Positions 16,778 through 35,093 of a DNA stretch of 36,039 bases are shown piece after piece; position 1 is the stretch's first letter; every line of letters begins with the position of its first letter. Made by a program: the position numbers and the translations under genes. The DNA comes from a virus, in the IMG/VR virus record IMGVR_UViG_3300023223_000123, positions 1-36,039 of that record. One strand, written 5' to 3'. The notes under the pieces are model-generated. The model made no database searches, had not been told where the DNA came from, and saw nothing but the letters and a program-made list of their open reading frames with translations.

Positions 16778-16841
16778 GATTAGCTCCTGTCGTGAATTTG
16801 AAGCATACCACACAATTAATTCATCCCCGCGCTGATATTAT

Positions 16842-16869
16842 TTGACATTGTGGGGATAGGTAGTGTATT
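16842..16869 (+). promoter_or_regulatory. Promoter-like sequence with flanking palindrome, start of the large RNA
   Basis: TTGACA (16842-16847, perfect), 16 bases, TGTATT (16864-16869, 4/6). Start of transcription would fall near 16877, just before the tRNA-like element at 16879. The -35 lies within an inverted repeat ATCCCC...GGGGAT (about 16823-16857), which could be an operator. Confidence 0.5.
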
Positions 16870-16878
16870 TATCCAATA

Positions 16879-16955
16879 GTGTTAGTTGCGGCTAATAGCA
16901 GGCTGAGTGAAAAACCTCGCGCACCTTCGGGCCGGTTCAATTCCGGGCTAGCACT
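16879..16955 (+). other. tRNA-like element (degenerate) at the 5' end of the large RNA
   Basis: GTGTTAG (16879-16885) pairs with CTAGCAC (16948-16954) over 7 bases with one G-U, as an acceptor stem followed by a T. GGTTCAATTCC is an exact match to the conserved T-loop sequence, with four of five T-stem pairs; a CC-TTCG-GG hairpin sits at the variable-arm place. The D arm and anticodon arm do not fold in the standard way (no 5-pair stem with a 7-base loop), so I do not call a functional tRNA. It may be a mimic, a decayed tRNA, or a domain of the RNA. Confidence 0.4.
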
Positions 16956-17937
16956 CTTTCATATTAATACTTGCAATCTTGGGGGATTAGCTTAGAATAT
17001 TGGGTGTAGGCGTTGGCAAGCGCTTTTGAGAGAAATTAGAGAAAGGGTCAAGATGTAAACTGATTTTAGAGAGTAAGGTAAATACTTGCCGGTATTCTCT
17101 AATTTCTCCCCCAATCTCTAGGGTCAGTTTTCATCTTGGCCTTTTTTGTGTCTGTAGAATGCTGGAGTTAATCGCCAGAGTAGCAAGTAGGTTAGGGTCA
17201 AGGTATAAGGTAGCCGCTAACTGAAAACTGAAACACGCTAAAGTCCTTATACAGCACTGATCATGCTACAGACACAACCTTTCTAAAGCTTCCTTGAGTC
17301 TGTATTAATGGGTCTTGTTCAACATTCGTAATGTAAACGCTGAGACAACGTAATCGGCGGGACAGGGCCCCTTAATACAGATTCAGAGTCTATATTGATG
17401 AGAGTAAAGAGTAATTAAATCTGGCGGCTAATCATGTCGTTTGCTGAAAACCCTGAATCTACTGGATGATGGGCTAATTAAGTTTTAATTATTTGCTGTA
17501 GCTAGTTTTACAGTGTTTGGAGAACAGGTAGCTAGCTTATCTCCCCAGCACTCTCTTCAATATAGATTCCCTCCTACCCAGTGTAATTATGTGGTGGCGT
17601 CATAGTTAGTGTGTGTAACTGTCGCTAATGCGAGTGGGTGAATTCCCATGCTATGGCACCCCTTCATAATTACACTGTCAGTTCATTAGATGCAGTAACG
17701 ATTGACACTGATGAAAACGCAAACGATACAGCTCGCTCAGAGTAGATATGTCAGCCTCACGGCTCACTCACCGCCTCTTTGTTAAAGCAGTAGAAGATAA
17801 GCCCACACTGCAACTGAGTTCTAAAGTCATTACAGGGGCTGGACTGTTCAAAGACAGGAAAGATGACGAGCTAATATAACTTTGATGATTATTAGCTGCT
17901 TGATGCGACCGATCGACCGACGGATTGTATAAAGTAA

Positions 17938-17976
17938 AGGGACTCAACTCACTTCATTGTGGGTTGGGGTTCTTTT
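17938..17976 (+). terminator. Intrinsic terminator of the large RNA
   Basis: A 10-pair stem closes on loop TTCATT (17953-17958), then after one mismatch 4 more pairs, ending in TTTT. Four pairs are G-U on the plus strand, so the hairpin only works for rightward transcripts. Next, 17977-18012 has a CAACTCACT-type partial copy of the stem arm and no gene. Confidence 0.7.
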
Positions 17977-18012
17977 GCCATCAACTCACTCACTTCACTC
18001 TGGATTATATAA

Positions 18013-32324: not shown

Positions 32325-33722
32325 ATGAGCTTTGATCAAGATACTTTTGCAACGGTTGGGGCTCACTCCACACCTACGCCTAGGGTTTATTCGTATGAAT
32401 CGACAGACCCGATTGTTACGGTGATATCTACGGGATATTTCGCAGATAAGCAATTCCAGCTAGAAGAGGGCGATGTGATCCTCGCTCGCTTATCTGGCGT
32501 TCTGAAGATGCTTAATGTCACCGCTGATGCCTCTACTGCTGCTGAGTCTCCTATTGGGAAAGACTATACCGATACATTCTTTATTGAGCGGCTAGAGGAT
32601 CTGGTTCACGACGACACCACCGTTACTTTCCCCGCTGGAACTACCTGTATGTTTATGACCACGGTGGATATCGGTGACAGAATAATAAATTGCTTGGGTG
32701 ATTGCGCCGCTGTCGGCTCCAGCCTTGTTACATCAGGGATTAGTTCGGACACTACAGGAACTTTGCTTAACTCTACTGGCAGTGTGATTGTAAAAAACAT
32801 GCAGCTTACGCTGACTGAAAGCACAGGAACTCATCTTGAGCTTGATGCTGCGGCCGGGGGTGTGTGTATATTTGAAGAAGTATTCTTTATTGGCGGGATT
32901 ATAGGAGCTGCCAGAGGATATTTCGCCACACAATTTGACAAGATTAGATCATTTAATCAGTTTGGTGGATTAATAATCAATGGGACGACTAATAGGCTTT
33001 TGATCTCGAGGTTTAATGCTGTCAATTGGCTAGGGACTACAAATCCCTGGATAAGCTTCGTCGGGGATATCACGGAGCGCGCCCAGATAGCGGACTCTAT
33101 ATTCGATACATCTAGTGGTGAGGTGGTTGTGTTTGTTGATCCTGGCGCCACATTTATCGGAGAAGGATTTAGAGTTCTAAACAACACATTCACTGGTCCA
33201 GGAACGTATTTGTCAGGAATAGATGCTAATGATGACGCCGCATTCTTTAGAGGGAACAAAAATTTAATAGATTCGATAGCTAATGCCGGTTGGAATATGG
33301 TAGGCAATTCTACAGCTACCGTAATATCCACCACGTCTACCCCTGTTGTTATGGCCGGGACAACAGTTCTACTTACTGCACAGCCTGTGCAAAAGTTCAC
33401 TCATATAGCATCTCCTAATAAAGTCACCTACACAGGAGCTAAATCGGGACCATTTTTGATTAATGCCCATTTTACAATGGAGACAGTTACTAATAATCAG
33501 GTTCTTATAGGGTCGTTTTCGTTAAACGGAGTTCAAGTTCCGGACTCAAAGATTAGGCTAACCACTAGTGGAGCGGCAGGCACCAGGATTGACAATATGG
33601 TGGTATCCGCTGTTGTTTCTATTGACGAAGACGATGATATACAGTTCCTTGTGGAAAACGAAACATCAACAGATAATATAACCGTAACAGATGGGTTCTT
33701 TCAGGTTGTCGCTTTAACTTGA
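32325..33722 (+). CDS. Head fibre / decoration protein with capsid-binding N-terminus
   Basis: A 465-residue protein. Residues about 15-65 (YSYESTDPIVTVISTGYF, FQLEEGDVILA) resemble the small decoration protein at 34756, which has YTTADAKATVVASGYF and IQVGDLVW at the same spacing, so this part probably binds the capsid. The centre (about 90-320) has short repeated strands like a beta-helix. The last 130 residues (GPFLINAHFTMETVTNNQV to the end) look like a C1q/TNF-type jelly roll, usual for trimeric tips that bind glycans. It sits between scaffold and major capsid and has its own terminator. Confidence 0.7.
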   Translation: MSFDQDTFATVGAHSTPTPRVYSYESTDPIVTVISTGYFADKQFQLEEGDVILARLSGVLKMLNVTADASTAAESPIGKDYTDTFFIERLEDLVHDDTTVTFPAGTTCMFMTTVDIGDRIINCLGDCAAVGSSLVTSGISSDTTGTLLNSTGSVIVKNMQLTLTESTGTHLELDAAAGGVCIFEEVFFIGGIIGAARGYFATQFDKIRSFNQFGGLIINGTTNRLLISRFNAVNWLGTTNPWISFVGDITERAQIADSIFDTSSGEVVVFVDPGATFIGEGFRVLNNTFTGPGTYLSGIDANDDAAFFRGNKNLIDSIANAGWNMVGNSTATVISTTSTPVVMAGTTVLLTAQPVQKFTHIASPNKVTYTGAKSGPFLINAHFTMETVTNNQVLIGSFSLNGVQVPDSKIRLTTSGAAGTRIDNMVVSAVVSIDEDDDIQFLVENETSTDNITVTDGFFQVVALT

Positions 33723-33744
33723 TAGTTTGACGCTATCATTTTTT
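33720..33744 (+). terminator. Intrinsic terminator after the head-fibre gene
   Basis: TGATAG (33720-33725), 7-base loop, CTATCA (33733-33738), then six Ts. The loop contains the -35 of the next promoter (TTGACG), so terminator and promoter share the same bases. The stem is short, so termination is probably partial. Confidence 0.7.
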
Positions 33745-33754
33745 GATATATAAT
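33727..33754 (+). promoter_or_regulatory. Promoter for the major capsid gene
   Basis: TTGACG (33727-33732), 16 bases, TATAAT (33749-33754, perfect). It would give a dedicated transcript for the most abundant virion protein, with a leader of about 125 bases before ATG 33887. Confidence 0.75.
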
Positions 33755-33772
33755 AGAAATAACACACCGATA

Positions 33773-33879
33773 CCTCCTCGGAGCCGGTAAGTTGCTCAAT
33801 TTAGTGTAGTTAGCTGAATTCGCGCCTTATTGGATACCGCGAAAAAGCTGAAACAAATAGTTTTTTCTGTCCGAGGAGG
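33773..33879 (+). promoter_or_regulatory. Capsid-gene leader that can mask the ribosome site
   Basis: CCTCCTCGGA (33773-33782) is the exact complement of TCCGAGGAGG (33870-33879), which contains the Shine-Dalgarno of the capsid gene 7 bases before its ATG. Between them AGCT/AGCT (33812-33815, 33846-33849) and TTCGCG/CGCGAA (33819-33824, 33838-33843) form a nested hairpin that brings the arms together. Closed, the leader would hide the ribosome site; open, it is very strong. It could be a thermometer, a processing site or a target for capsid-protein feedback. Confidence 0.6.
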
Positions 33880-33886
33880 ACAAATT

Positions 33887-34744
33887 ATGTCTAAGTTCTT
33901 AACCGCTGCTGCGGTCACTGAATTTGACGATGATGTGAAACATGCTTATCAAAGTATGGGCAAGCTTCGCAACACCGTTACAATTCGAACTGGTGTGGTT
34001 GGTGAAGCCTACAAATTTACTCGTATGGGTAAAGGTCTAGCTAATCAGAAAGCCACTCAAGCCGATGTTACCCCGATGGACATCGCGCATGCACGTCAAA
34101 CAGCTACTCTCGAAAATTGGAATGCTCCTGAATACACTGATATTTTTGATCAGGCAGAAGTTAATTTCGATGAACGTCAGGAGTTAGCGCAAACCATCGC
34201 TAAAGCCTTGTCTCGTCGTGAAGATCAGATCATCATTGATGCAATTGCTGCTGGTACTTACTCAGCAACTCCTGCCAATCTTGATGTTGGCGGTCTGATT
34301 GTTGCCGGTGCTGCTGGTTTGACTGTATCTAAACTCCGCTCAGCCTCTGAAATAATGAATGACCGGGCTGTTGACTCTGCTGACCGTACTATCATGCACA
34401 ATGCCGCTGGTTTGCGTCAGTTACTTGAAGACCCCGAGGTCACTTCTAGTGATTTCGCTACTATCAAGGCGCTGATGAATGGTGAGCTTAATAGCTACAT
34501 GGGCTTTAAGTTTGAGTTGATTGAAACCCGTGTCGAAGGCGGCCTGCCTCAGACCGGGGATATCGTTGACGCTTTCGTGTATCAGAAGATGGCTGTTGGT
34601 TATGCCGTTGGCCTTGATATGAAAACCACTATTGACTGGGTTGCACAGAAAACCTCTTGGTTAGCTAACGGTATGCTGAAGTCTGGCGCTGTGCTACGTG
34701 AGGCGGCTGGTGTCGTTAAAGTCCAATATGATGAAACTGCATAG
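33887..34744 (+). CDS. Major capsid protein
   Basis: A 285-residue protein starting MSKFLTAAAVTEFDDDVKHAYQ, with a basic, Thr-rich early part (RNTVTIRTGVVGEAYKFTRMG), the middle EYTDIFDQAEVNFDERQELAQTIAKALSRREDQIIIDA helix (the spine-helix-type region of HK97-like folds) and an end with KTTIDWVAQKTSWLANGMLKSGAVLREAAGVVKVQYDE. This matches small podoviral HK97-fold capsids. The frame is open to 33830, but the AGGAGG at 33874-33879 fixes the start at 33887. Confidence 0.9.
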   Translation: MSKFLTAAAVTEFDDDVKHAYQSMGKLRNTVTIRTGVVGEAYKFTRMGKGLANQKATQADVTPMDIAHARQTATLENWNAPEYTDIFDQAEVNFDERQELAQTIAKALSRREDQIIIDAIAAGTYSATPANLDVGGLIVAGAAGLTVSKLRSASEIMNDRAVDSADRTIMHNAAGLRQLLEDPEVTSSDFATIKALMNGELNSYMGFKFELIETRVEGGLPQTGDIVDAFVYQKMAVGYAVGLDMKTTIDWVAQKTSWLANGMLKSGAVLREAAGVVKVQYDETA

Positions 34745-34755
34745 GAGGGATTAGC

Positions 34756-35028
34756 ATGGCTTTTTCCGCAACAGAGTTCTTGCCGCTCTCTTCAATGGCA
34801 AACAGTAATGCTCCACGGCACTGGACCTACACCACGGCAGATGCGAAAGCTACTGTTGTGGCTTCAGGCTACTTTGATACCGCAGTTGCTTTGGGTATTC
34901 AGGTAGGCGATTTGGTCTGGTCGGTTGATGCAAACGGAGGTACTGAAACCTTCACGCTAGTGTTTGTAGATGCTATCTCAGGGGCTGGTGTAGTAACCAC
35001 TCTGAGTTCTACATTGACCCTGGCTTAA
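34756..35028 (+). CDS. Capsid decoration-like protein
   Basis: A 90-residue beta-rich protein (FSATEFLPLSSMANSNAPRHW, then TTADAKATVVASGYFDTAVALGIQVGDLVW). The central part resembles the N-terminal domain of the 465-residue head-fibre protein. Decoration proteins stabilise the expanded shell from outside. AGGAGGGA precedes the ATG, and a terminator follows. Role inferred from position and from the shared domain. Confidence 0.7.
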   Translation: MAFSATEFLPLSSMANSNAPRHWTYTTADAKATVVASGYFDTAVALGIQVGDLVWSVDANGGTETFTLVFVDAISGAGVVTTLSSTLTLA

Positions 35029-35040
35029 CTACCACTGATT

Positions 35041-35082
35041 TAGCCCCTGAAATATGGGGCTAACCCCTTCGGGGGTCTTTTT
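35041..35082 (+). terminator. Double-hairpin terminator after the capsid genes
   Basis: TAGCCCC/GGGGCTA (35041-35047, 35056-35062), then ACCCC-TTCG-GGGGT (35063-35076) followed by CTTTTT. The second hairpin, with a stable TTCG loop and T-run, is a classic intrinsic terminator and would keep capsid transcripts much more abundant than tail transcripts. Confidence 0.9.
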
Positions 35083-35093
35083 GGAGTGCCGAT

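Follow-up and report, generated by a model that had tools for sequence, protein, structure and literature searches.

A covarying RNA leader with two proposed folds as a candidate translational switch upstream of the major capsid gene in uncultured phages

Promoters are the usual explanation for when tailed phages produce their capsids. In the viral record IMGVR_UViG_3300023223_000123 (36,039 nucleotides, referred to here as the window), the mRNA leader of the major capsid gene contains an arm, CCTCCTCGGA, that is the exact reverse complement of the ribosome site TCCGAGGAGG, with a spacing of 87 nt. A preliminary description of this locus had proposed a perfect 10-base arm brought to the ribosome site by nested inner stems. 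Sequence comparison confirms the complementarity, and the MFE fold of 33755-33900 consists of exactly that 10-bp helix with two inner stems inside it, with an energy of -43.8 kcal/mol, where shuffled sequences give -28.9 +/- 3.4 (z -4.3). Neither the 10-mer nor its complement occurs elsewhere in the window, and when 47 putative gene starts are compared, the capsid gene has the longest stretch complementary to its ribosome-site region (10 nt, with a runner-up of 8 nt). A sequence of 36 kb is expected to contain a few 10-nt inverted repeats with such a spacing, and the whole window holds 20 overlapping 10-mer inverted-repeat hits no more than 120 nt apart, against 5.5 in Markov shuffles, so chance complementarity of arm and site has to be considered. 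However, the location of the repeat on the ribosome site and its covariation in dozens of leaders, described below, make chance a practically negligible explanation.

The capsid gene appears to be transcribed as a unit of its own, with a promoter, the leader, the capsid gene, a gene for a 90-aa protein and a terminator-like hairpin, all recognised from sequence patterns and protein matches (Table 1). The transcript is predicted to start at about 33761, a few nucleotides 5' of the RNA element. In the relatives, the end of the -10-like box most often lies 14-17 nt upstream of the GAUACC anchor, and the folded element therefore starts at most about ten bases from the predicted transcript start. 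This position at the predicted 5' end, in a unit closed by a terminator-like hairpin, would also suit a leader that acts mainly on transcription or RNA stability, as a put-like antitermination RNA, an RNase III site or a 5' stabiliser, with the pairing to the ribosome site being secondary. Two sets of leaders with no member in common both show specific covariation with the ribosome-site region. This argues against such a role, which we regard as quite improbable.

Table 1. Features of the capsid transcription unit and its leader in the window.
Feature	Position	Strand	Basis or partner
Sigma-70-type promoter, TTGACG-16-TATAAT	33727-33754	+	11/12 consensus matches
Helix PA 5' strand, CCG	33767-33769	+	pairs with 33785-33787
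Site 1, GAUACC	33769-33774	+	conserved unpaired core
Strand 0, anti-Shine-Dalgarno arm CCTCCTCGGA	33773-33782	+	MFE; covariation with ribosome site
Hairpin P0, alternative use of strand 0	33774-33776 with 33781-33783	+	pair counts
Strand 1, CCGGTAAG	33784-33791	+	partner strand 3 (helix P1) or 5' strand (helix PA)
Strand 2, TTAGCT (33810-33815) and TTCGCG (33819-33824)	33810-33824	+	partner strand 4
Strand 3, CTTATTGG	33826-33833	+	partner strand 1; MFE and P1 pair counts
Site 2, GGAUACC, second GAUACC copy	33832-33838	+	sequence
Strand 4, CGCGAA (33838-33843) and AGCTGA (33846-33851)	33838-33851	+	partner strand 2, or strand 5 via 33841-33850
Strand 5, TAGTTTTTTC	33858-33867	+	partner strand 4 in OFF fold; MFE, tail covariation
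Strand 6, ribosome-binding site TCCGAGGAGG	33870-33879	+	paired by strand 0 in OFF fold
Major capsid protein, 285 aa	33887-34744	+	PF19821 Phage_capsid_2, E 2e-70; phrog_3437 major head protein
90-aa protein, same transcription unit as capsid	34756-35028	+	phrog_18004, unknown function
Terminator-like hairpin, would end capsid transcription unit	35063-35085	+	sequence pattern

Several other features of the window were noted. An inverted repeat (GATAG...CTATC followed by T, 33721-33742) overlaps the -35 box, and in L003, L037, L066 and L071 the -35 region is likewise flanked by similar ones; it is a candidate terminator of the upstream gene, or a candidate operator. The capsid gene is separated from the scaffold-like gene by a 465-aa gene (32325-33722) whose C-terminus gives a weak tail-fibre match and whose N-terminus resembles the 90-aa post-capsid protein, both matching phrog_18004. 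Further upstream, about 1.2 kb without a convincing gene (16820-18010) carries five long imperfect inverted repeats with arms of 16-27 nt, and its part at 17000-17710 has a predicted folding energy of -249 kcal/mol (z -10, 20 shuffles). A large structured noncoding RNA seems to be present here, and Rfam gave no match for it.

The capsid leader of the window is a member of a family. A capsid-protein search of IMG/VR gave 343 encoding stretches, and in the best 80 of the 343 capsid loci, which were used here, the leaders are visibly homologous. A covariance model (R1), built from 26 leaders with two helices only (P0 and P1), matches 54 leaders at E up to 1, each directly upstream of a homologous capsid gene, and the family extends over more than 50 related viral contigs, mostly of uncultured phages. 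The window itself matches R1 directly upstream of its PF19821 capsid gene (33763-33851, 45 bits, E 6e-9, with no second copy), a score that is partly circular since the model was built with the window among its 26 rows; the swap tests described below are independent of model score. Both the pairing of strands 2 and 4 and that of arm and ribosome site are present in the window. A single strong match per phage was found in all 16 records examined. Two DNA-pattern scans, in which the protein was not used, gave strong hits, and the downstream genes inspected all encode the capsid; a capsid gene likewise lies downstream in L131 and L333, which were found by DNA pattern and not by protein. A second model, R2, reaches the leaders of more distant capsid clades. 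Four DNA-pattern candidates of 17-18 bits (L139, L145, L161 and L166) were rejected, as they look like chance matches within coding sequence. In L131 (7059-8560) an inserted ORF, resembling by eye a homing endonuclease of the GIY-YIG type, splits the capsid gene and leaves the leader upstream intact.

This leader RNA family looks previously undescribed. No family in Rfam 15 reached the gathering score for the window or for 32 further loci, a relaxed Rfam search with the leaders of the window and L017 gave chance-level hits only, blastn of the region against cultured phages gave no match, and no capsid-leader RNA of this kind was found in the literature among open-licence papers. Searches with R1 and/or R2 detected no member in the leaders of HTVC034P, HTVC010P, Greip, Hodr, three Vibrio phages, ZCVPP1, MEP301 and Dunaliella virus SI2, and this search therefore provides no cultured host; all sequences of the family are metagenomic. 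Several of the isolates without an R1 or R2 match carry other structured-looking leaders. The capsid leaders of a clade resembling Dunaliella virus SI2 (L203-L282) share another conserved pattern, AGACCC...GGCACCCGG...AAGGCCCTCGATC...GATTGAAACCTTGAAGGAG, which is possibly a distant relative of the element; the members of this clade that were tested have no R1 or R2 match.

Conservation of the pairings was assessed by a swap test, in which the duplex energy of a strand with its own partner is compared with that obtained with partners from other leaders. In the main set of 27 non-redundant leaders (<80% identity), strands 2 and 4 reach -10.7 kcal/mol with their own partner and -5.1 when swapped (z -12.4), and the own partner ranks best in 18 of the 27. 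The corresponding energies are -14.2 and -10.0 kcal/mol for arm 0 and the ribosome-site region (z -8.9) and -7.7 and -4.9 kcal/mol for strand 4 and the downstream tail (z -8.1), with z values of 0.1 and -1.3 for control strand pairs. The strands of the window rank their own partner first of 27 both for arm 0 and ribosome site (-21.6 kcal/mol) and for strands 2 and 4 (-12.6 kcal/mol). An earlier version of the arm/ribosome-site test, based on contiguous matches, gave z 16.7. As the leaders share ancestry, all of these permutation z-scores overstate the number of independent events. A second set of 26 additional, more distant leaders, in which anchors were placed automatically and some wrongly, gave z -6.1 for arm and site and weaker values for strands 2 and 4 (z -3.8) and for strand 4 and tail (z -3.1), to be read beside the controls of this set at -2.2 and 0.2. 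The helices were first seen by eye in the same leaders that were later tested, and the distant set provides the one partial replication.

Pair counts in an alignment of 54 leaders, fitted to P0 and P1 only, give both-sided changes at all nine pairs counted in the helix of strands 2 and 4 and at all four pairs of P0, which is 92% paired. PA is 98% paired, with 17 double changes at one pair, and P1 is 93% paired. Strand 0 is common to P0 and to the pairing with strand 6, strand 1 to PA and P1, and strand 4 to the pairings with strands 2 and 5; the alternative pairings are therefore mutually exclusive, each of them supported. This covariation indicates that two mutually exclusive folds are under selection. 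The preliminary description had proposed that the arm, if functional, should be conserved in related phages; because arm and site covary across relatives, the opposite outcome of a retained site with a lost arm was not obtained. Its view of the leader as a hairpin that blocks the ribosome site holds in part: sequestration is strongly supported by covariation, but a hairpin alone gives way to a two-state arrangement, as the alternative partners are equally conserved. An RNA thermometer, or a plain blocker of fixed strength tuning basal translation only, would be in keeping with pairing over the ribosome site, the classical thermometer layout. However, it would require the OFF helix only and leaves unexplained the covariation of strands 2 and 4, P0 and PA as well as the conservation of the unpaired GAUACC, and we consider it very unlikely.

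A variant clade uses another blocking strand. In L018, L026, L042 and L048 arm 0 and the ribosome site have lost their complementarity (about -7 kcal/mol in L042 and L048), and in leaders of the L018/L026 type strand 4 (CCCCTTA) now matches the ribosome site (TAAGGGG), with strand 4/site duplexes of -11 to -13 kcal/mol in L042 and L048; the same logic is therefore kept by another route. Over the 27 leaders, the two blocking routes are related in the expected direction, a trend that is not significant (Spearman -0.35, p 0.07).

In the reading that we prefer, and judge likely if well short of assured, the first ~120 nt of the capsid mRNA would be a two-state RNA switch controlling translation initiation of the major capsid protein. 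In the OFF fold, arm 0 would pair with the ribosome site, strand 1 with strand 3 (P1) and strand 4 with strand 5. In the ON fold, arm 0 would form its own hairpin (P0) and strand 4 would pair with strand 2, freeing the ribosome site, with the 5' CCG pairing with strand 1 (PA) or, alternatively, P1 being retained within a pseudoknot. We infer this direction of control, together with the effector and the effect on capsid timing considered below.

OFF would be the default by nearest-neighbour energy. For full-length transcripts a nested model prefers the OFF set in most leaders, with on average 6.4 predicted pairs between strands 0 and 6, 5.4 in P1 and 7.3 between strand 4 and the tail, and almost none in PA or between strands 2 and 4. 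Ribosome-site accessibility across the leaders is 0.10, against 0.24 with shuffled leaders (Wilcoxon p 2e-7). The window taken alone shows no such difference (0.13, against 0.14 with shuffled leaders), as GTCCGAGGAGGAC also folds into a small local hairpin. The energy model is nested and ignores pseudoknots; PA and P1 cannot coexist, and P1 together with the helix of strands 2 and 4 is a pseudoknot. Since the ON pairings are disfavoured by nested energies in most leaders, they need pseudoknot energy or an effector, both of which are assumed here. A helix that is conserved yet not energetically preferred suggests stabilisation by something else.

The order of cotranscriptional folding could be an alternative driver. 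In such a timer, nascent P0 and the helix of strands 2 and 4 would permit a burst of translation, followed by slow refolding to the stable OFF state, for which the MS2 maturation-gene leader and type I toxin mRNAs are precedents. Two points favour a timer: strands 5 and 6 are transcribed later than the strands that make up the ON fold, and by energy the RNA ends in the OFF fold. However, a transcript ending after strand 4 is already predicted by the nested model to prefer P1 over the pairing of strands 2 and 4 in most leaders, and the nested-energy test of cotranscriptional folding gives no general early preference for the ON fold. Moreover, one would expect a capsid gene to require translation that is sustained, not transient. 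We regard a timer as unlikely.

The ON fold of the proposed switch would probably depend on an effector recognising the conserved unpaired core, to which two GAUACC sites belong, one at 33769 (GAUACC) and one at 33832 (GGAUACC). In the more distant clades the two sites are GAUAACC-like, and the extra-A variants co-occur; an automatic call of site type agrees between sites 1 and 2 in 49 of 58 leaders (Fisher p 2e-6). On an after-the-fact reading, the nine discordant leaders reflect mispositioning by the script, and properly placed sites agree. A joint change of type is as expected if the two are equivalent binding sites or contact each other. In the proposed ON fold of the window, each GAUACC would lie opposite a GCC across an internal loop, in opposite orientation. 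By eye, the GAUACC/GGCC core (33769-33838) is similar to that of the theophylline aptamer obtained by in vitro selection, a similarity that we take to be probably a coincidence.

Candidate effectors are small molecules and proteins of phage or host, with a slight preference for a small molecule because the unpaired positions are conserved in sequence where the helices are rewritten. A new riboswitch class in a large group of metagenomic phages, in which the two-GAUACC RNA would respond to a metabolite or to a signal of the infection stage by turning capsid synthesis on, is put forward tentatively, as a possibility rather than an expectation. A protein-responsive leader would be a sub-case of the same switch, in which the core would be bound, and the fold shifted, by a structural protein of the phage (capsid or scaffold) or by an RNA-binding protein of the host; feedback matching capsid to scaffold supply is one example. 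The element is found only upstream of the capsid gene and in single copy, and two copies of one core sequence would suit a dimeric protein. Furthermore, R1 run against 563 sampled bacterial genomes (274 of one class and 289 of another) matched only an already-known phage-like contig, with no copy preceding a metabolic gene (both weak negatives), as expected for a phage-specific partner. However, a sequence-conserved unpaired core fits a small molecule equally, and we know of no evidence that the capsid proteins of this PF19821 phage group bind RNA; a protein effector appears somewhat unlikely.

A conserved two-state RNA would add a separate translational layer to the timing of capsid synthesis in a large, mainly metagenomic phage group, and it raises the testable question of which signal tells such phages to make their shells. 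If the effector is a small molecule, the leader would define a new class of riboswitch, known from viruses and not from their hosts.

Phage mRNAs in which alternative folds hide or expose the ribosome site, as proposed here, include the lambda cIII and MS2 maturation-gene leaders; these belong to different genes and, to our knowledge, share no sequence with the capsid leader and have no conserved two-site core. Ribosomal-protein autoregulatory leaders likewise place a structural-protein gene under a folded leader, although for the capsid leader a binding protein is only hypothetical. The capsid leader may work like a translational riboswitch, a likeness drawn from covariation and predicted folds, by which mutually exclusive folds are found, one of them hiding the ribosome site; as ligand binding is hypothetical, we do not classify the leader as a riboswitch. 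Translational riboswitches such as SAM-II, preQ1 and glutamine/glnA share with it the 5' leader position, a conserved core, exclusive folds and a hidden ribosome site, whereas the capsid leader has no Rfam match and precedes a phage structural gene rather than a metabolic gene. Riboswitches have been termed a rare feature in phages (PMC9004378). The glutamine riboswitch of the marine phage Melnitz is likewise an RNA switch in a phage, but its class is already known and it is associated with a tmRNA gene (PMC9004378). The manA and wcaG motifs are also candidate regulatory RNAs, mostly from marine metagenomes and cyanophages; in contrast to the capsid leader, they have a different motif and precede metabolic, exopolysaccharide or photosynthesis genes (PMC2864571).
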